From: a virus
Direction: 5' to 3' (one strand)
Virus record (IMG/VR): IMGVR_UViG_3300043787_000063
Coordinates: 1-60,421 of that record
DNA: 60,421 nucleotides
The notes beneath the pieces were generated by a model. It was not told where the DNA came from. It saw nothing but the letters and a program-made list of their open reading frames with translations, and ran no database searches. Positions 8,105 through 47,340 of the stretch are shown here, in pieces; position 1 is the stretch's first letter; the number at the start of each line of letters is the position of its first letter. The translations under genes and the position numbers were made by a program.

Positions 8105-9360
8105 TGGATTCAGAGAGAGCGGTACTTTCAAGTGCACTTGTTTCTGGATCAATATCTACTCTCTTAGCAAGGGGAGTGGAACTTAAACATTTTACGAACA
8201 CTAAATCAGGCGAAGAATGCAGATTAGTATTTTCTTTTGCGGCGAATCACGCGCGAAAATATGGATGTAGTCCATCACCTCAAATAGTTAAAGCTAATTT
8301 CCCTAATTGGCATGGCGAACCATCATCGGATCCGTTAGAGGCATTAATTGATCAGTTTTTGAATGATGTGAGAAGACGTTATTACTCAGCAAAGGTAATG
8401 GAGCTAGCGCAAGCGGAGGGAAATCCGGCCAATTGGGGTAAATTAGATGAGATAATGCTAGATGCAGCAAGAGATCTGGCAACAGTAATTCCTTCCGGTC
8501 AGGTTTCACGCGTAAGGGCAGAAATGCAGGATCGTATTGACCAGTATGAAGTGGATAAGGCTGATGGTAGAGTTCTAGGTATTAAATGTGGGATTCCTTT
8601 GTTTGATGATTTAACTGATGGTTTCCAGCAAGGAGATATCGTAACTGTTGCAGGCTATTCTGGTAGAGGAAAGAGCTATACTGCACAAGCATTTTTAGCT
8701 AATGCGCTTGATCAAGGTAAAGATGCTTTGCTCATGTCGTTAGAGATGAGTACTCGTCAAATTATGGATCGTTTCGATACCATGATTACTAATTTTAGTC
8801 ATAAAGAGTTACGAAAGCGTCAGTTACCAGATAGTGAGATTGAAAATTGGCGTAGAGCTGCGCAGAAATATGAAGATGCTAAAAATGATTTAGTAGTAGT
8901 AGATAAGATGGGCCACTGCACGGTTGACAGAGTATATGCAGAGATAAACCGTTATAAACCAGATATTACTTGTGTAGATTATGTTCAGTTAATGAAGGGT
9001 TCTAAAGCCTCTATGTCGAAATGGGAGGGCCTTGTAGAGATTACTAATGAATTGAAGTCTGTGGCTTTAGCTACTGATTCTACAATTATTATGGTTAGCC
9101 AGGATCAGCGAAATTCTGCTGAGGAGGGATCGACAGAAAGTAATATGGGTGGGTCTATCTCAGTATTACAAGCTGCTGATATTTATATTGGAATGATGCA
9201 AAATGAAGAGATGAGACATCAAAAGAAAATTTTGATGAGGCTTATCAAGAATCGGAATGGATCCCCAGGAGAGTCAGACGTAATGTGTGATCCAGAATAT
9301 GGGCGTTTTGTACCTTGGCAGGATAATAATATAAATAATTTTGATAAGGAGTTAGTATGA
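8104..9360 (+). CDS. dnaB: DnaB-like replicative helicase
   Basis: A 418-residue hexameric helicase that unwinds the fork. An N-terminal DnaB-type helical domain (about residues 1-120) is followed by the RecA-like domain with Walker A GYSGRGKS at about 190. A LLMSLEMS segment comes next, then a Walker B region ITCVDYVQLM near 297, and MVSQ with a downstream basic finger (LIKNRNGSPGE). It is slightly shorter than cellular DnaB (about 450-470). With the primase, SSB and DnaE it forms the phage replisome. Confidence 0.88.
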   Translation: MDSERAVLSSALVSGSISTLLARGVELKHFTNTKSGEECRLVFSFAANHARKYGCSPSPQIVKANFPNWHGEPSSDPLEALIDQFLNDVRRRYYSAKVMELAQAEGNPANWGKLDEIMLDAARDLATVIPSGQVSRVRAEMQDRIDQYEVDKADGRVLGIKCGIPLFDDLTDGFQQGDIVTVAGYSGRGKSYTAQAFLANALDQGKDALLMSLEMSTRQIMDRFDTMITNFSHKELRKRQLPDSEIENWRRAAQKYEDAKNDLVVVDKMGHCTVDRVYAEINRYKPDITCVDYVQLMKGSKASMSKWEGLVEITNELKSVALATDSTIIMVSQDQRNSAEEGSTESNMGGSISVLQAADIYIGMMQNEEMRHQKKILMRLIKNRNGSPGESDVMCDPEYGRFVPWQDNNINNFDKELV

Positions 9361-11653: not shown

Positions 11654-12466
11654 GTGAGCCCGTCAGGTATAGAGGAATATAGCAAATATGTAAATATTGT
11701 TAAAGCTAGTCGTGGTAGCGGAAGTGCTGATGGAGAATTTATTAAATATTTTGGAATTGAAGATGGGCAAACAGCTCGCATAAGATTTTTAGAGCAGGGT
11801 GATCAGCTTAATTATGCTTTAGCGCATGGTATAAAAAATAGTTTTGGTAGGTTTATTGATCTAATTTGTATAGATCAAAAGAATGAAGGAACTCCTTGTC
11901 CTGCTTGCATGTCGGATAATGTTAATATTCGTAAGCGCAGCCCAAAAGGGTTTCTGAATGTTATATGGCGAGGATCTGATGAGTCTGAGTATATTAGGGG
12001 ACCTATTTATAAAACCAATGATAAAGGATTTATAGAAAAAGATCCTATTACTAAAAAAAAGGTTATAGTGGGATTTGAGGATGGAGTATTTCTTTGGAAG
12101 TGTTCCAAAAGTGTATGGGAGATGGTTCTGGAGAAGAATAGAGTATATAAAGGTCTTATGAATAGAGATTTTATTGTATCTAGAAAAGGAGCTTCTAAAG
12201 AGGATACAAAATATGCTATTGAGCAAGCAGTTATTGATGGTGGACCTGAACCTATGACTGTTGCTGACCAGAATCTCGCGCAGAATAAGTTTGATGTAGT
12301 AAAGTTAACAACGCCAGGTACTTATGAGGAAATGGTCGCTATTCTCTCCGGCCAGGTTTCCGCCGGAAGTGGTGGTCCTCAACCTACTTTTCAAAGAGAA
12401 ATACCTACTCAAGAGAATGTCTTTAATTCTGGCAACCCATTAAGATCTTCTGCTTTTCAGAGGTAG
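11654..12466 (+). CDS. Single-stranded DNA-binding protein, gp32-like
   Basis: 270 aa from GTG with AAGGAGG upstream. It has a core of the type RIRFLEQGDQ...YALAHGI, then a CIDQ.....CPAC zinc-like segment (about residues 72-88), typical of gp32-like phage SSBs. The C-terminal 50 residues are Pro/Gly/Ser-rich and flexible. It coats ssDNA at the fork and directs the recombinase. There is no strongly acidic tail, which is unusual for SSB-type proteins. Confidence 0.75.
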   Translation: MSPSGIEEYSKYVNIVKASRGSGSADGEFIKYFGIEDGQTARIRFLEQGDQLNYALAHGIKNSFGRFIDLICIDQKNEGTPCPACMSDNVNIRKRSPKGFLNVIWRGSDESEYIRGPIYKTNDKGFIEKDPITKKKVIVGFEDGVFLWKCSKSVWEMVLEKNRVYKGLMNRDFIVSRKGASKEDTKYAIEQAVIDGGPEPMTVADQNLAQNKFDVVKLTTPGTYEEMVAILSGQVSAGSGGPQPTFQREIPTQENVFNSGNPLRSSAFQR

Positions 12467-12703: not shown

Positions 12704-12910
12704 ATGTTTGAGTATAGAGTTAGATGGCAAAGAGAAGGGAAGCAAAAGAGAATAAAAATTTATCAGACTATGCAAGGAGCAATGGATTTTGTAGATACAC
12801 TTGAGGGGAATTGGGCGCAAAGTGATGAGGCTATAGAACATTATATCAATGTTCCTCCTTTAGTATATGGTCCCTTAATTGAAAAGAGACCAGTAGGAAT
12901 ATGGTCTTAG
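12704..12910 (+). CDS. Hypothetical protein, 68 aa
   Basis: A small basic protein directly abutting dnaE (stop and start are adjacent). The N-terminal half is basic (RVRWQREGKQKRIKI), like a nucleic-acid-binding beta-strand pair. No known family. Confidence 0.5.
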   Translation: MFEYRVRWQREGKQKRIKIYQTMQGAMDFVDTLEGNWAQSDEAIEHYINVPPLVYGPLIEKRPVGIWS

Positions 12911-25719: not shown

Positions 25720-28700
25720 ATGGCGGGGAAAGTTAAAGATATAAAATTAGATAGTGTAGATCTATCTAAACTAACAGATAAGGAAAAACGTGAGTTAATC
25801 CTTTCTATGCGGCGACTTGGCGGCAAAAGTGGTTCGCAAAAAAGACCTGTACCTACTACTGATGATGAGCTGTGGGTACACATTAGGGAAGAATATGGCG
25901 ATGAAGTTCCTCGCGTAGCAGTTTGTAAAGATCATTGTGCGCCTTTTGATTTTATGGCAGATTATTACTTTGAACGTGCTACAGCATTGTTGGTGATGGC
26001 TGCGCGAGAAACAGGGAAGACACGTGGAGTGTCAATTATAAATTGTGTTATTGCGGAAACAAAAAATGGTGTGGAGATTTGTGTTGCAGGGGATACCTTA
26101 ATAGACTGTCCAAGAGACCATAGACAATACCCAAACGGTATTCCAATAAATATTATAAAATCTGGGCAGCTAATATGGACATTTAATGAAGAAAATTTTA
26201 TCTTTGAATTAAAGAGAGTAAAACAAGTAAAGCTAACTCATAAAGATTGTCAGTTATATAAATTAAAGCTCGATGATGGATCTGTAATAAGAGCAACTGC
26301 TGAGCATAAATTTCTTCATAGGAATGGAGAATGGGTTAAATTATGTGATTTAAAATTTGGTGATTCTCTTATGCCTATGTATAGAGATTTTGAGCCATAT
26401 GTAAGAATAAGGCCAGATGCTACTGGTGGTGGAGAAAAAATATCTGAGTATAAAGCTGTTGCGAATTTTAAATGGGAAGATAGAAAAGGATTTCATATAG
26501 ACCACATTGATGAAATTCATGCTAATTCTAGTGAGGATAATCTACAGTTACTTACGGTTAGCGAACATGCTTCTAAGACCATGAAGGGAAGAAATGTAGG
26601 ATTTCGCAGAAAGCAGCAACAGAAGGCGCAGATGAACAGTGTAAATGACGTAAAGAGGAATAAAGAAGCTAAAGAAATATTAGAGAAATTAAAAAATATA
26701 CCAGAAGACCAGTTAACTATTCCACAGCTAGAAGCCTTAGATAGATATTATTCAACTTCTGAAAATGGAGAGATAGAATTTACTTGTAGTATATGCAGGG
26801 AAAATTTTGTTAGAAGAATGAATGGAAGAGATAGAGTGCCGCTTTGCAATTTATGTAAGACAGAGGGTAGAATATGTCCTGTTTGTAAAGAACCATATGT
26901 AGTAGAAAGATATAGTAAGAATAAAACTTGTTCTAGAAGGTGCGGGCAAATTCTAAAACACCAAATATATTCTTATAAAAATAAAAAATGTGCAAAATGC
27001 GAAAAAGAGTTTACTCCAAAAAACGGTAGCACTAAAAATTGTCCTGATTGCCAAAATAGATATTTTCAAACTTATGAGAGAAGCAGGCGTAGGGAAATAG
27101 AGCATTCACAATATTATAATCATAAAGTAGTATCAGTTGAGAAAGATTCAATAGAGGATGTATGGGATTTAGAAGTTGAAGATAACCATAACTTTGTATC
27201 TTGCGGAGTTGTTCTACATAATTGTGCCTTTGCGGAGATCGAGGCTCAAACAGAAAAATCTTATTCTTATGTAAAAGAGTTTGTATATGATTATGATAAA
27301 GATGGAAAGAAAGTTATAAAACCGGGTATACTGGGTGAGCCATTGCGAAAGATGACTCAATGGAAGAATGGGTCTAAACTTTTACTTATTGTTGCTACTC
27401 TTGGTGGAGTTAATGCACAGCATTCACAAAAGGTTTATGCTGATGAGATTGATCTTATGAAAAAGGATATTTTTTATGAGAGCAGATCAATTAGTAGTTC
27501 TAAGACTCTTAAAGATGGTACGATAGTAAAAGCTCAAGATATTGCGACTTCTACTCGCAAGTCCAATAAGGGCGTTATGCAGGAAATAATGAATGAGTGT
27601 GATAGTGCTGAAAAAAATGGTTTCGATCCTCCTTGGACTAGATATATTTTTTGTATATTTGAGGTAGCAAAGGAGAACCCAGCTTGCAGAAATGTTCCTA
27701 AAGATATAAGGAAAGCTAGACTAATTGAGTTAGGTAAAGACCCTTGTGAATTGTGTGATTGCGACAAAGTGGTCAAAGGAGAGTGGGCTGAGGGAGTTCC
27801 AAGAACTTTAGAGTCAGTATGTAAGGGTAGGCTTTTTAGATCAAGAGGTTGGATGGCGCATAATGACGTTAAGCGAAAGTTCGTTCAGAATATACCTCAA
27901 GTTTGGGTAGCGCAGCTTGAATGTAAAAGACCAATGGCAGATGGTCTTTATTTGCCAACTTGGAATAGAGAAAAGCATTGTATTCGTGGTTTTGAACCAA
28001 GACCGGAGTATGGATTAATTTGGCAAGGAATAGACTGGGGCGGCGCAGCGGCCAGTTTTGTGATTTGGATTCAAGGTCCTATGCATCAATCACTACAAGT
28101 TAATAATACTATAGGAACTAAAACTATTATTCCTCAAGGAGCTTATGTAGCTTTTAAAGAGTTATCTGAGGCTTCCATGGGTGCAACTCGTCTCGCAGAT
28201 AAAGTTGTTAGACAAGAGATTCAATATAAGAATAGATTCGGTGGAGGTTGGAGGGTAAAGGCAAGATTTGCTGATATGGCGGGGAGACAACAGCGAGAGG
28301 ACTGGAGAGAGCATAACCCTCCATTAAGAACTGTTTGGTATATCTCAAGAGATGTAGACCCTATGTTTGAATGTTTACAGGCTTTAGTTACTGATAATAT
28401 GTTTTATGTAGATGATCAAAATGCTCCTACTTTATGTGATGACTTCGAGAGTTGGAGAATGGAGAATAATAAGGAAGTGCATGACGAATCAACTCACGGA
28501 CCTTCTGCAACTAAATATTGCATGAAGAATGTAACTACTATTATGAAGAGATTTAAAAATACTACTACCCGCACGAGCTTAGCGCCGGTGGTCGTCGGCA
28601 GGGACGCGGCCCAAAATGTTCCTGGTGCTTTGGCTGCTGCTAGTGTAGGATCTGTTTCTCCCGGCGAAGCGTCCTCTGAGAATTGGCGCAGGAGTCTAGG

Positions 28701-28764
28701 CGCTCCAGCGACGCAGGGGGATTTTGAAAATAGAAGGGGAGGGGCAGAGCCGTGGAGGCCGTAA
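25720..28764 (+). CDS. terL: Terminase large subunit, interrupted by an HNH intein
   Basis: The 1014-codon gene encodes a packaging ATPase/nuclease of about 633 residues after splicing. Walker A-like AARETGKTRG is near residue 95, Walker B-like VYADEIDLM follows the intein, and the nuclease domain shows GLIWQGIDWGG and KARFADMAG. The intein is residues 121-501 and interrupts just after the Walker A region. The extein halves join as NGVEI-CAFAEIEAQT. The C-terminal 40 residues are GC-rich and disordered. Confidence 0.88.
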   Translation: MAGKVKDIKLDSVDLSKLTDKEKRELILSMRRLGGKSGSQKRPVPTTDDELWVHIREEYGDEVPRVAVCKDHCAPFDFMADYYFERATALLVMAARETGKTRGVSIINCVIAETKNGVEICVAGDTLIDCPRDHRQYPNGIPINIIKSGQLIWTFNEENFIFELKRVKQVKLTHKDCQLYKLKLDDGSVIRATAEHKFLHRNGEWVKLCDLKFGDSLMPMYRDFEPYVRIRPDATGGGEKISEYKAVANFKWEDRKGFHIDHIDEIHANSSEDNLQLLTVSEHASKTMKGRNVGFRRKQQQKAQMNSVNDVKRNKEAKEILEKLKNIPEDQLTIPQLEALDRYYSTSENGEIEFTCSICRENFVRRMNGRDRVPLCNLCKTEGRICPVCKEPYVVERYSKNKTCSRRCGQILKHQIYSYKNKKCAKCEKEFTPKNGSTKNCPDCQNRYFQTYERSRRREIEHSQYYNHKVVSVEKDSIEDVWDLEVEDNHNFVSCGVVLHNCAFAEIEAQTEKSYSYVKEFVYDYDKDGKKVIKPGILGEPLRKMTQWKNGSKLLLIVATLGGVNAQHSQKVYADEIDLMKKDIFYESRSISSSKTLKDGTIVKAQDIATSTRKSNKGVMQEIMNECDSAEKNGFDPPWTRYIFCIFEVAKENPACRNVPKDIRKARLIELGKDPCELCDCDKVVKGEWAEGVPRTLESVCKGRLFRSRGWMAHNDVKRKFVQNIPQVWVAQLECKRPMADGLYLPTWNREKHCIRGFEPRPEYGLIWQGIDWGGAAASFVIWIQGPMHQSLQVNNTIGTKTIIPQGAYVAFKELSEASMGATRLADKVVRQEIQYKNRFGGGWRVKARFADMAGRQQREDWREHNPPLRTVWYISRDVDPMFECLQALVTDNMFYVDDQNAPTLCDDFESWRMENNKEVHDESTHGPSATKYCMKNVTTIMKRFKNTTTRTSLAPVVVGRDAAQNVPGALAAASVGSVSPGEASSENWRRSLGAPATQGDFENRRGGAEPWRP
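26080..27222 (+). mobile_element. Intein in TerL, with HNH homing endonuclease
   Basis: 381 codons. It begins with the Cys of CVAGDTLIDCPRD and ends VVLHN before the extein Cys, the class 1 splicing arrangement. Inside are an HNH core (FHIDHIDEIHANSSEDNLQLLT type, about 26494-26560) and several CxxC zinc pairs. Removal by protein splicing restores the terminase. Confidence 0.9.
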
Positions 28765-43428: not shown

Positions 43429-44110
43429 CTATCCCCCACAAGGGGGTAGATTGTGCTATGCTGTGCTCATGCCGCCAGTCGATCGCAACGCACCTAAACG
43501 AGCATCTTTCTCGGAGTCTTCATATTCATTGATGGAGTTTCTAAAAGACTATCCAGACGATGCAACTTGTTTGGACTTTCTTTGGCACGAGAGATACGCG
43601 CCAGATGGGCATATAGCACATTGCCCAAAGTGCGATAAGGATAGGAAGTTTCATAAGGTCAAAGAAAGACCAGCTTGGGATTGCGACTCTTGCGGATATC
43701 ACTTACATCCTTTGGTGGGAACTATCTTCGAGAAGTCATCTACGTCTTTGCACCTCTGGTTTTATGCGATCTTTCTTATGACTAGCACTCGTTGTGGCAC
43801 ATCTGCTAAGCAGCTTGAGCGAGAGCTTGGGGTTACATATAAGACTGCATGGAGAATCTTCAACAAGATTCGCAATGAGTTGATGACTGATGAGGATACT
43901 TTGCTTTCAGGGCAGGTAGAGGCCGATGAGACCTCTGTTGAGGGAAAGCCGCGCAAACCACACGGTCAAACACCATTCGCTCAGCCTGGGGTAAACCGGC
44001 GCTCTGAGGCTGCCAAGTTGCGCCATGCTAGGAGACTCTAGCGAAACTATACTTTCCTCAGTATCTAAGCTAAATCTCCAGCCTGTATACTAGCACAGAT
44101 ACCCCACTTT
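43429..44110 (+). mobile_element. IS1595-like insertion sequence relic
   Basis: A truncated transposase (43469-44041) lies between imperfect inverted ends. GGGGGTAGATTGTGCTATG is at the left (about 43442-43460). The right end, read on the other strand, is GTGGGGTATCTGTGCTAGTA (about 44085-44104). The transposase is about two thirds of normal length, so the element is probably not active. Confidence 0.55.
43469..44041 (+). pseudogene. IS1595-family transposase, truncated
   Basis: 190 residues from the ATG at 43469. The zinc ribbon (CPKC...CDSCGYHLHPLVGTIFEKS, about 45-75) and a helix-turn-helix (KTAWRIFNKIR) are visible. A first catalytic acidic site EADET is near residue 155. The rest of the DDE domain is missing, compared with about 300 residues normally. 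Its product may be inactive. Confidence 0.75.
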
Positions 44111-44237
44111 GGAGAAGATCCTACCCCATGAGACATCTTGTCTACATTCGGGCCGATTTCTGTGGCGGAACGACTGGCGAAAGTGCCCACAGCAAAGTTT
44201 AAAGCCTCGAATCTCCGCTAGACTGAGCGCACCTTCA
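44042..44237. other. Gene-free GC-rich stretch
   Basis: No gene seen. It includes the right end of the IS1595-like relic. Confidence 0.4.
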
Positions 44238-44310
44238 AGGGCAAAGGCCGGAAGATTGGTGGAGCCAGCTCCCCCAACTGCGCCTTTGCTCTCGGTTCGG
44301 TTGGGGGAGC
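44238..44310 (+). repeat. Conserved hairpin element, copy 1
   Basis: AGGGCAAAGGCCGGAAGATT, then GGTGGAGCC, then a perfect 11-bp stem GCTCCCCCAAC/GTTGGGGGAGC with a 21-base loop (44279-44299). The same layout occurs at 46769 and 47271. It lies 15 bases before the tRNA-Ala. It could be a structured RNA or terminator. Confidence 0.6.
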
Positions 44311-44324
44311 GACCCACCACTGAC

Positions 44325-44419
44325 GCGCCTGTAGCTCAGTGGTCAACGGTTCCCAGTGGGGGCCAAAGAGCAGCGGTCTTGCACACCGCAGGTCGGGGGT
44401 TCGATTCCCTCCAGGCGCA
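44325..44419 (+). tRNA. tRNA-Ala (TGC) with expanded D-loop
   Basis: Acceptor GCGCCTG/CAGGCGC, D-stem GCTC/GAGC, anticodon stem GCGGT/ACCGC with loop CTTGCAC, and T-loop TTCGATT all fit. The D-loop is about 30 bases instead of 8-11. It contains an extra hairpin GGTTCCC-AGT-GGGGGCC (44348-44364). The tRNA may be non-functional or need processing. Confidence 0.75.
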
Positions 44420-44470
44420 TCTACTGGAGTATAGCGCAGACAATCGTGCGTTAACACCGACAGATGTCTG

Positions 44471-44710
44471 TTAGCGAACCTTCTGCGCTGGAATCCCCTC
44501 GAACAGCCGCCCTGCAGGTACCTGAAGCGCTTCGGCCAAGATCACGATGGTTGGGAAGCGTGGCGCTCGATTGGCCCGCTCCATCTTGCTGATGGCCGTC
44601 GTATGCAGCTTCGAGTGGTAGGAGAGGTCCTCCTGCGACCAGCCACGCTCAGCGCGGAGGGCCTTCAAGTTTGTAGCAAAGCGCTCAAGGGGGCTCACGC
44701 CCCAAAGCAT
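44471..44710 (-). CDS. XRE-family helix-turn-helix regulator
   Basis: 79 residues from the ATG at 44710 (a longer frame reaches 44749; a GTG at 44698 is also possible). FATNLKALRAERGWSQEDLS and then TTAISKMERANRAPRFPTI form a Cro/CI-type helix-turn-helix. GC-rich codons and the sequence type suggest bacterial, possibly actinobacterial, origin. It may regulate genes in the island. Confidence 0.75.
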   Translation of the reverse strand: MLWGVSPLERFATNLKALRAERGWSQEDLSYHSKLHTTAISKMERANRAPRFPTIVILAEALQVPAGRLFEGIPAQKVR

Positions 44711-44928
44711 CCGCCGCCTAACCCAAGAAGCCAAGAGACATATCGTCAAGTTTTGTGTATGCTACGCGCGTTCAATATGCAGGATGGATTCGTGCGGAAG
44801 ATCACAAACTACTATGCAGGAGGTACTTGTATGGGCACTACGCCAATAATCATTGGTGCGCTGATGCTGATTTTTGAGGGGCCTCCGGCCCTGCCTGCTG
44901 CTGTGGCGCTGGGGGTGATCTGGAGCTG

Positions 44929-45294
44929 ATGCGACTACGACCTCGTTGGCGCAAGATGACGTGGGTTGTGATTTTGTGGTGTGTCTTGATCCTTGCTTGG
45001 GCAATTGGTGGAGCAATCAGTGGCGCAAATCACAATGCTCAGACATGTACTCATTCAGCATTTTTGGGCACCAAGAGCTGCGAAGAAGCCAGTAATGCAG
45101 GAACAGGAATTGGTATAGCTCTGATCTTATTTATCGGATTCATTGGCTTCGTATTCTTTTCTTTGATTTGGTTTATGACTCGACCAAAGCAACGCGATTG
45201 TCCAGTTTGCGGAAATTCTGTTAAGAAGGGTATTACAACTTGCGCAAAGTGTAATCACGACTTTGCAAAAGCTGCTTATGCTGTAGAAGGTTAA
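44929..45294 (+). CDS. Membrane protein with C-terminal zinc ribbon, 121 aa
   Basis: Two transmembrane helices (about residues 11-29 and 60-83) and a zinc ribbon CPVCGNSVKKGITTCAKC (about 91-108). The type is seen in Gram-positive bacteria. It is rightward and overlaps the transposase tail-to-tail by 4 bases. It looks host-derived. Confidence 0.6.
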   Translation: MRLRPRWRKMTWVVILWCVLILAWAIGGAISGANHNAQTCTHSAFLGTKSCEEASNAGTGIGIALILFIGFIGFVFFSLIWFMTRPKQRDCPVCGNSVKKGITTCAKCNHDFAKAAYAVEG

Positions 45295-46394
45295 GCTTTA
45301 ATTAGTGCACAACTCAGCTTCGTCAAGATCGTGAGATCGACATGGAGCTTTACTTTTGCTATTCCTCTAACTCTAAGAGGGAGCATTGCCCACTGGTGCT
45401 TCAGTCGCCCGAATGCCCGCTCGACTGAGGCCCGACCTCGATACAGCTTCTTCCAACGATCAGTGGAACGTGGAATGAGTGTATGAAGTCGATCAGCCGA
45501 GACCCACTTAGATTTCGTGCCACATTCCCCTGTCGGACATCTCCACTTCGTTGCCTTGCGTTTGTAGTCGGCTCCGGCAAACTGCCACTCGCCATGCTCA
45601 CAGCACGGCACAGCATCCTTGCCGCGCTTCACCTCGGGCGTTTTCCGCAGAGGAATGACTGGCGCGATATTCCACTCAGAAAGGTCTTCGTAGACGCGAT
45701 TATTGTCGTACCCCTTATCGAGCGCACACGTCTCAGGATTGATTCCCTGCTGGTGTAGAACATCGAGCAGTGGAGCGACTGAGAGTGTTTCATGGGCTCG
45801 CGCAGTCTCCACCTGCCACGCAAGGGGAAGGTCTGTCTTAGAACAAACGGCCATGTGCAGCCGATATCCGTAGAAGCCTCCGCCCTTTCTCGTACTGACG
45901 GCGGAGCGGTGGCCCCAAGAGGCATCAGGATCGGAATACTTCTCTCGTTCTCTGCCACCCTTGCTCACGAACCGCTGCCCGTTGGCATAAGCAGGGATGT
46001 CAGATGCATCTATGGAAATATTCTTTCCAAACTCGGGATTCTTTTTATTAAGAGATGAAATAGTGTTTTTGATACTTTTTTCTAAAAGATGATCATTCTC
46101 TTTGAGCTTCTTTGTAAATCTATAACAAGCAAATACAGAAGGAATATCTCCATTTGGAGAAATAACTTTTGAAAGAGCTTCATGTTCATTTACTAAAGAA
46201 ACTATTTTAGTCCATGTGGAAATAGAATAAATAGTCTTGGCTAAAGCCATCCCAATCATGCTGCGAATGGGATAACCAGGGCGACCCGTCCAGCGGGTGT
46301 CGTCAAGGTCCGCAATGAGGACTTTGATCTGGGGCGAGTCGAGAAGTGAAGCAAGCTCGGAAACGGCCGAGCATGATAGCGTGTCTCGGGTCAT
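45291..46394 (-). CDS. DDE transposase, IS5/IS1182-like
   Basis: 367 residues. Catalytic sites are SIDASD (about 146), ALDKGYDNNRVYED (about 228) and the Glu in RGRASVERAFGRLK (about 325-335). The frame is complete. No terminal inverted repeats are visible, as the 3' end overlaps the neighbour and the 5' flank is a hairpin. The middle (about 46020-46260) is markedly AT-rich while both ends are GC-rich. Confidence 0.8.
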   Translation of the reverse strand: MTRDTLSCSAVSELASLLDSPQIKVLIADLDDTRWTGRPGYPIRSMIGMALAKTIYSISTWTKIVSLVNEHEALSKVISPNGDIPSVFACYRFTKKLKENDHLLEKSIKNTISSLNKKNPEFGKNISIDASDIPAYANGQRFVSKGGREREKYSDPDASWGHRSAVSTRKGGGFYGYRLHMAVCSKTDLPLAWQVETARAHETLSVAPLLDVLHQQGINPETCALDKGYDNNRVYEDLSEWNIAPVIPLRKTPEVKRGKDAVPCCEHGEWQFAGADYKRKATKWRCPTGECGTKSKWVSADRLHTLIPRSTDRWKKLYRGRASVERAFGRLKHQWAMLPLRVRGIAKVKLHVDLTILTKLSCALIKA

Positions 46395-46417
46395 TGGAGG
46401 TCAGATCTCCTGTGGCC

Positions 46418-46450
46418 TGACCCCCGGGCGTTGGCGCGTCGCGGGGGTCA
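46418..46450. terminator. GC-rich hairpin
   Basis: TGACCCCCG pairs with CGGGGGTCA (9 bp, 15-base loop), followed by TTTATATA on the right. It could terminate rightward transcription. Confidence 0.45.
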
Positions 46451-46514
46451 TTTATATAGTTCGAGGGAAGCTATCAGGAGCTTCGGACGGAACTTTCTGG
46501 CCGATAGAATAAGC

Positions 46515-46550
46515 GAGCCCCGACCGGAGGATCAGTCCGAATCGGGGCTC
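46515..46550 (+). repeat. Hairpin immediately before a tRNA-like gene
   Basis: GAGCCCCGA/TCGGGGCTC (9 bp, 18-base loop), ending one base before the tRNA-like sequence. This parallels the hairpin before tRNA-Ala. Confidence 0.5.
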
Positions 46551-46551
46551 A

Positions 46552-46625
46552 GCAGCGGTAGCTCAGTTGGTAGAGCGGGGTCCGTGGAAAGGCTCGCGTC
46601 GCAGGTTCGAGTCCTGCCCGCTGCA
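46552..46625 (+). tRNA. tRNA-like gene with eight-base anticodon loop
   Basis: Acceptor GCAGCGG/CCGCTGC, D-stem GCTC/GAGC, T-stem GCAGG/CCTGC with TTCGAGT. The anticodon stem GGGTC/GGCTC encloses CGTGGAAA, eight bases. If U33 is at 46585 the anticodon would be GGA (Ser), but the variable arm is short, unlike serine tRNAs. Identity uncertain. Confidence 0.5.
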
Positions 46626-47134
46626 AGTATTTCTACTGGAGTTGTAGCACAGCCACATTAGATTATTTGTGCTGATTGCTACTAGTGTTGGGTGGCCTGC
46701 CTTCTTAGTTAGCGCTCGCTAAGTTGTTTCGTTGGTGGTTTCTGCGGCTATCCTCTTGATTGTCTTCCAGGGCATAGGCCAGGAGACTGGAGCCGACGGC
46801 AGTCCCTCCAGGGTCTTGATCTAGCCGGATCTCCCTGGAGGGACACTCCTTAGCTCCTCGCTTCGCTCGGAGTTTCGTCGTTCCTGGTTGGTTATCATGG
46901 GCGCGCCAGCTCCTGATTCACGAGGTTGCCTACGAGACATATGCGGGAAGCTCGCCCGGCCTGACCACACCGCGCTCCCCTCGCCTCGCTGACCGGCGCG
47001 CCCCGAACTCGCCACTGGGGGCGTTGTACGTTAAGTTTGTGCTCATTGTCACGATCTAGTTTCGTAGGCACTTTCGTAGATCCCTCAGTAGGGCATCTCA
47101 AAATCCCTGAGATGCTCGACAAGGGAGCTAGAAA
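46626..47134. other. Non-coding GC-rich stretch of the island
   Basis: No convincing gene. It holds hairpin element copy 2 (46769-46844) and the inverted repeat GCATCTCA/TGAGATGC (about 47091-47114). Frames on the minus strand (46821-47185) have no protein-like sequence. Confidence 0.45.
46769..46844 (+). repeat. Conserved hairpin element, copy 2
   Basis: AGGGCATAGGCCAGGAGACT, then GGAGCCGACG, then a perfect 12-bp stem GTCCCTCCAGGG/CCCTGGAGGGAC with a 19-base loop. Same order as copies 1 and 3. Confidence 0.6.
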
Positions 47135-47230
47135 ATGCCAGGAGTTGATCGTCGCCCCACTCTTGCCGTTCCTCTGGGACGACATGCGCTAGGCCCAGAT
47201 CAGGCGCAGGGGAAGAACCCGGAAGTTTAA
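47135..47230 (+). CDS. Possible 31-residue Pro/Arg-rich peptide
   Basis: AAGGGAG lies 8 bases before the ATG. GC-rich frame with Pro, Arg and Gly. No family, short, so low confidence. Confidence 0.3.
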   Translation: MPGVDRRPTLAVPLGRHALGPDQAQGKNPEV

Positions 47231-47270
47231 ATGATCGAATCATGGTTGGTATGCTTGCAGCCTTCCTAAC

Positions 47271-47340
47271 AGGGCACAGGCCGGGAAGTGGAGCCGACGC
47301 TCCCCTGGCCTGGGGGCTGCCATTCCTTGGGCCAGGGGAG
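47271..47340 (+). repeat. Conserved hairpin element, copy 3
   Basis: AGGGCACAGGCCGGGAAGTG, then GAGCCGACG, then a perfect 11-bp stem CTCCCCTGGCC/GGCCAGGGGAG with a 19-base loop. GGCTTTCT follows, which makes this copy most like a terminator. It sits at the convergence of rightward and leftward genes. Confidence 0.6.

Follow-up and report, generated by a model that had tools for sequence, protein, structure and literature searches.

What does a hairpin-bearing element that recurs three times among the transfer RNA (tRNA) genes of a phage do there? The question is raised by the 60,421-base IMG/VR virus record IMGVR_UViG_3300043787_000063 (hereafter the window), a piece of an uncultured phage of about 90 kb, in which a short element that we term E1 is found in a GC-rich tRNA island (46–56% G+C at 43–48 kb, as compared with 37.5% for the genome). 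We consider it about an even bet (a probability of roughly 0.5) that the phage makes a small structured RNA from E1, which would then most likely be a stand-alone gene of about 85–100 nt, present in three copies in this island. Small RNAs are poorly mapped in phages without cultured hosts, and E1 may be put to the test as a candidate phage RNA with an effect on host RNA metabolism, or as an unusual way of ending small transcripts.

The initial annotation had drawn attention to a leader, AGGGCA(A/T/C)AGGCC, and exact matches to it are indeed located at positions 44238, 46769 and 47271; TGGAGCC follows downstream in each copy (44260, 46788 and 47289), and the perfect stems of 11–12 bp with loops of 19–21 nt that had been described are present in all three, with stem sequences that differ from copy to copy. 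The order of these parts (AGGGCANAGGCC, TGGAGCC, perfect 11–12 bp stem) is fixed. Shuffled sequences yield an expectation of zero matches to the leader pattern, and the three stems are the only perfect ones of at least 11 bp (loops up to 30 nt) in the window, a feature encountered in 54 of 20,000 random 93-nt windows (0.27%). Elsewhere in IMG/VR, about 120 leader-like chance matches (among the matches listed) served as a control, and none of them has a stem that reaches 10 bp. Pairwise local alignments of the copies reach scores of 40, 53 and 43, above those of all 300 shuffles, and the likeness of copies 1 and 3 extends about 45 nt further upstream (AAGTTTAAA..CGAATC).

The leader itself folds as a hairpin, P1, which precedes the long perfect hairpin, P2. 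P1 consists of a helix of 4–7 bp, a bulge ending in AG, and then GGC-ANAG-GCC, a tip whose loop takes in the variable position N of AGGGCANAGGCC. All copies in the window lie on the plus strand. P1 of copy 1 (44233–44254; CUUC/GAAG, a bulge ending in AG, GGC-AAAG-GCC) contains the AGGGCAAAGGCC leader at 44238 and is followed by P2 at 44268–44310, with a perfect 11-bp stem and a 21-nt loop. In copy 2, P1 occupies 46762–46787 (GUCU-U-CC/GG-AGAC, AG, GGC-AUAG-GCC) and P2 46802–46844 (perfect 12-bp stem, 19-nt loop), while copy 3 has P1 at 47262–47288 (CUUCCU/GGGAAG, AACAG, GGC-ACAG-GCC) and P2 at 47300–47340 (perfect 11-bp stem, 19-nt loop).

A fourth copy was recovered when whole records of related phages were scanned. 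These relatives comprise three uncultured phage records of about 91–94 kb, namely G001 (IMGVR_UViG_3300027908_000003), G002 (IMGVR_UViG_3300047509_000177) and G007 (3300036790_000231), whose polymerases are 77%, 65% and 57% identical to that of the window, respectively, and G003, a 23.6-kb fragment. Copy 4 is situated at 12704–12830 of locus L054 of G002, within a GC-rich tRNA cluster; E1 was not found in G001, G007 or G003. A 69-nt block running from TTTAAA to GGAGC is 91% identical between copy 3 (window 47226–47294, plus strand) and copy 4 (L054 12704–12772), and its 24-nt core from AGGGCA to GGAGC is the same in both; the stems that follow differ, yet their pairing is kept. The stem arms are nevertheless still related (CTCCC-CT-GGCC in copy 3 versus CACCC-GGCC-AG in copy 4), with matching two-base insertions or deletions in both arms. 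Applied to five related phage records, a structural descriptor of the two-hairpin order picks out exactly the four E1 copies; 1.66 Mb of other DNA gives it three weaker matches, whose stems have 9 bp. Three scans of other phages in IMG/VR returned 39, 25 and at least 119 stretches, and among those examined the one in G002 is the only real E1; in annotated phage collections, copy 3 is without a match and copy 2 has weak, unrelated matches only.

Since stem alignments made with MAFFT were unfit for a covariance model, pairing was assessed with a register set by hand, the structural descriptor, and shuffles. P1 is part of the minimum free energy fold of copies 1–3 when adequate flanks are given, and of that of copy 4 with one of two flank choices. 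The lower P1 helix measures 4, 6, 6 and 7 bp in the four copies, lengths to be read against control cores, of which 20% reach 4 bp and 2.3% reach 6 bp; its sequence is altered on both sides between copies (CUUC/GAAG versus GUCU/AGAC). Taken over P1 and the outer and inner P2 helices of the four copies, pairing is kept in 88 of 88 pairs, both sides have changed in 12 of 22, and none of 5,000 column shuffles attains any of four pairing measures. G-U pairs are found in P1 and in the outer P2 helix, in copies 3 and 4 in both cases, while the 45 pairs of the core P2 stems are all Watson-Crick pairs. Helices held by compensatory changes, the hallmark of a structured RNA that the initial annotation had invoked for the stems, are thus what the pair counts over four copies describe, and the claim has gained from the additional copy, from the leader, where a second helix covaries, and from the flanking G-U pairs. 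It falls short of proof: the copies number only four, two of them close relatives, and a perfect inverted repeat would covary in just this way were the DNA itself the target of selection or of template-switch repair.

Upstream of the first helix, each of the four copies carries a TANNNT box at a distance of 6–8 nt, a motif whose background at that spacing in the island is 3.0%. The boxes of the window are TAGACT in copy 1 (44219–44224, a -10-like box 8 nt 5' of the helix), TATCCT in copy 2 (46749–46754, 7 nt) and TATGCT in copy 3 (47250–47255, 6 nt), and copy 4 has TATGCT as well. Further upstream lies a possible -35 region, the AAGTTTAAA box, at 44195–44203 in copy 1 and 47223–47231 in copy 3 (both recognised as repeat D4 and by alignment); it is partly shared by copies 2 and 4, with AAGTTGTTT at 46721–46729 in copy 2, as judged from sequence and alignment, and with TTTAAA of the copy 3 box kept in G002. 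A TANNNT box together with a AAGTTTAAA-like box is what a short promoter with its start site would look like.

If E1 is a small structured RNA, its transcription would begin at this putative promoter, set by the TANNNT box before the first helix and the AAGTTTAAA-like box upstream of it, and the transcript would fold into two successive hairpins: P1, with its short helix, AG bulge and fixed GGC-ANAG-GCC tip, and P2, a long, GC-rich and perfectly paired hairpin. Because P1 is nearly invariant, it is probably recognised by a protein or another RNA, and because P2 is conserved in shape only, it probably stabilises and ends the RNA. Its likeliest role would be that of a regulatory or decoy RNA expressed during infection beside the phage tRNAs. 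A more specific proposal, which we offer tentatively, is that small phage RNA genes of the E1 type form a new family, whose invariant bulged hairpin (AG plus GGC-ANAG-GCC) would bind a host RNA-binding factor, or serve it as a decoy, during infection, with several copies dispersed among tRNA genes and with a second hairpin whose sequence is freely interchangeable. A fixed recognition hairpin joined to a swappable partner, in multiple copies beside tRNAs, also provides a precise model for searches. Among known families, the small structured phage RNAs in Rfam resemble E1 as short intergenic structured RNAs in tRNA or accessory regions of phages. Within the window, the Rfam gathering threshold is reached by tRNA alone, so no family covers E1, and permissive Rfam scans of the E1 elements gave chance matches only, for instance to eukaryotic microRNA models.

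Several observations weigh against this interpretation. What the analysis shows of E1 is its sequence, copy number, homologue, predicted fold and covariation, whereas its transcription, partner and role are what we infer; its known scope is four copies in two uncultured phages, a small number in which copies 3 and 4 are close. E1 is dispensable, given that G001 and G007 do without it. The promoter boxes were spotted post hoc, the spacing to the upstream box varies between 15 and 19 nt, and a generic sigma-70 scan did not flag the boxes of E1. The pair counts lean towards structure because the helices were picked from these very sequences; no copy taken singly gives a significant outer P2 helix (P 0.08–0.62), and core P2 stems devoid of G-U pairs are unusual for a freely drifting RNA. 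Finally, a small same-strand unit lies 5' of every copy: a 24-amino-acid open reading frame (ORF; 44128–44200) in the case of copy 1, a tRNA-Ser gene (46552–46625) for copy 2, a 31-amino-acid ORF (47135–47230) for copy 3, and an 81-amino-acid ORF in G002 for copy 4. A role at the end of a transcript is possible in view of this arrangement, equally compatible with a terminator and with a separate gene.

The chief rival explanation, which we regard as possible, if doubtful, is that E1 is such a 3'-end module, a terminator or RNA-end protector of the upstream unit in which P1 gives an accessory signal to the polymerase or a termination factor. Besides the position shared by all four copies, this explanation can draw on copy 3, which lies about 20 nt beyond the stop of a small minus-strand ORF as well, at the convergence of two operons, and which is the sole copy to pass a loose terminator scan. 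Like intrinsic terminators, including the U-less 'I-shaped' ones that have been claimed for mycobacteria and are contested (PMC12288462), E1 places a GC-rich perfect hairpin 3' of small units; it differs from them in its conserved upstream P1, loops of 19–29 nt, promoter-like box, and mostly missing U-tract. A canonical intrinsic terminator joins a GC-rich stem directly to a U-tract, but copies 1, 2 and 4 offer no usable U-tract, their tails (GACCCACCAC, ACTCCTTAGC and TCCGCTTTAG) being poor in U, whereas T-runs are present on other hairpins of these phages (e.g., G007 33381 and 54239). The contesting of U-less terminators is credited to Czyz 2014, as cited in PMC12288462. A plain terminator, moreover, leaves unexplained why the leader is more conserved than the hairpin and why there is a TANNNT box. 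Were E1 merely a terminator, it would still put on record terminator-like hairpins that are poor in U and preceded by a conserved hairpin.

The wholly Watson-Crick core stems would also suit a DNA hairpin, single-stranded or cruciform, that a recombinase or nuclease recognises as the tRNA island is reshuffled, in the manner of repetitive extragenic palindromes (REPs) or cassette attachment sites. This is an unlikely explanation in our view, albeit one that accommodates the patchwork character of the island, with the segment of copy 1 and tRNA-Ala standing in place of the 3' half of an IS1595-type gene, as well as a GGAG 2–8 nt 5' of the stem, near the foot of the hairpin, which is loosely reminiscent of a REP tag. 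GTAG-tagged REPs, which are associated with TnpA_REP/RAYT, likewise have a short tag 5' of an intergenic hairpin with a variable stem, but they combine a GTAG-type tag beside the palindrome with a usually small loop (mostly 2–3 bp) and hundreds of copies (PMC3733652, PMC8266576), whereas E1 has a different, longer tag, loops of 19–29 nt and three copies. No Y1 transposase (PF01797, of the Y1/HUH type) was detected in the window, itself a fragment, or in G002, the two phage sequences searched, with controls that were positive, and no tyrosine integrase (PF00589) as would go with integron attC-like sites was matched in either. Frequent G-T pairs in REPs have been read as hinting that these function as RNA (PMC3733652); in E1, P1 and the G-U pairs of the flanking helices call for a reading as RNA, and P1 together with the TANNNT box would favour RNA over DNA. 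Perfect stems might alternatively be a product of mutation in place of selection, with template switching at a quasi-palindrome correcting the arms and the repeat hitchhiking with the island. We consider this improbable: every core stem is perfect and copies 3 and 4 display concerted two-base changes in both arms, as such a process would have it, yet it does not account for why the AGGGCANAGGCC tip is invariant, why the parts keep their order and why P1 covaries in separate copies. Very improbable, finally, is a structured 5' leader for the expression or processing of tRNAs; copy 1 does end 15 nt before tRNA-Ala, and tRNAs of the window, G002 and G007 have other hairpins immediately at their 5' side, but copies 2, 3 and 4 have no nearby downstream tRNA on their strand, and these flush hairpins possess neither P1 nor the leader.

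These hairpins beside tRNAs had been taken for relatives of E1 in the initial annotation. They prove to be mostly of another kind and leaderless, such as the separate hairpin GAGCCCCGA/TCGGGGCTC at 46515–46550 (plus strand), which is flush with the 5' end of the tRNA-Ser (GGA) gene (plus strand) upstream of copy 2 and also precedes a tRNA-Leu in G002; the association with tRNAs holds for E1 itself in copy 1, directly before the tRNA-Ala at 44325. Further perfect, GC-rich hairpins that abut a tRNA gene on its 5' side, or stop a few nucleotides short of it, are found at 9309–9343 and 11988–12014 (minus strand) of L054 and at 79833–79878 of G007; those at window 46515–46550 and L054 9309–9343 are closely alike, including the loop, although they stand before different tRNAs (Ser and Leu). 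The tRNA-Ala (TGC) gene at 44325–44419 (plus strand; 64.1 bits with the Rfam tRNA model, and supported by its fold) carries a hairpin inserted in its D-loop, as do L053 8122–8217 (minus strand) and possibly L054 12144–12238. The sequence of this insertion varies between related phages (GGTTCCC-AGT-GGGGGCC in the window, GAGAACC-TTCG-GGGTCTC in G002), and such tRNAs are missed or misjudged by ARAGORN, while the Rfam scores of window 44325–44419 and L053 8122–8217 are good.

Other readings of E1 were set aside. Its conservation is not that of a coding sequence, because a stop codon (TAG) immediately precedes the leader of copy 1 and the copies do not share one reading frame; copies 3 and 4 could encode the short peptide MVGML(A/V)AFL(T/I)GHRPGSGA. 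A pseudoknot between the leader and the P2 loop finds complementary bases in copies 1 and 2 and is not significant overall (P 0.06, 0.05 and 0.74). A search of GTDB for a repeat of host genomes gave two chance matches to the strict pattern, both without a hairpin. E1 is not part of the IS5-type transposon either: the 5' hairpin of that gene is a different one, common to L045/L046, and G002 carries E1 without that gene nearby. The IS5-type genes of GC-rich contigs also have a conserved 5' hairpin (GACCCCCG..CGGGGGTC), and upstream of such genes (L045/L046) there is a stretch, in reverse complement, similar to GCTATCAGGNGNTTCGGACGGAACTT, a sequence common to window 46470–46495 and to G002 (L054 12063–12088), where no transposase adjoins it.

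The island is placed where plus-strand and minus-strand genes meet, and it contains, in addition to the three E1 copies, an IS1595-type gene fragment, tRNA-Ala, a helix-turn-helix (HTH) protein, an IS5-type transposase and tRNA-Ser. Within window 43451–44474, the IS1595-type gene lacks its 3' half from about 44028, the start of the copy-1/tRNA-Ala segment; it runs on past that breakpoint in G007, and the HTH gene that resumes at 44474 has a relative next to the longer gene of G007 (L095 9267–10442). Given the break at about 44028 and the resumption at 44474, the copy-1/tRNA-Ala segment appears to have taken the place of part of a transposon module. TTTCGT-N5-TTTCGT direct repeats, about 11 bp apart, occur in two phages, each time in a GC-rich region with tRNAs (window 47060–47078; L054 at about 12332, 12674 and 12862 on the plus strand and 11658 on the minus strand), partly adjoining E1. 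The partly palindromic intergenic motif TTGTGCTACA(A) is present five to six times each in G001, G002 and G007, often directly 3' of genes or tRNAs (e.g., L051 12760 and 13248; L054 11698 and 11887), and looks like an operator or stoperator-type site as far as its sequence suggests. Proteins encoded elsewhere in the window include a DnaE-type polymerase, a DnaB-like helicase, a primase, a UvsX-like recombinase, a ribonucleotide reductase, an endolysin and an FtsK/SpoIIIE-like protein, along with a 1014-amino-acid protein (25720–28764) that contains an intein splicing domain (E 1e-22) and has a weak HNH match.

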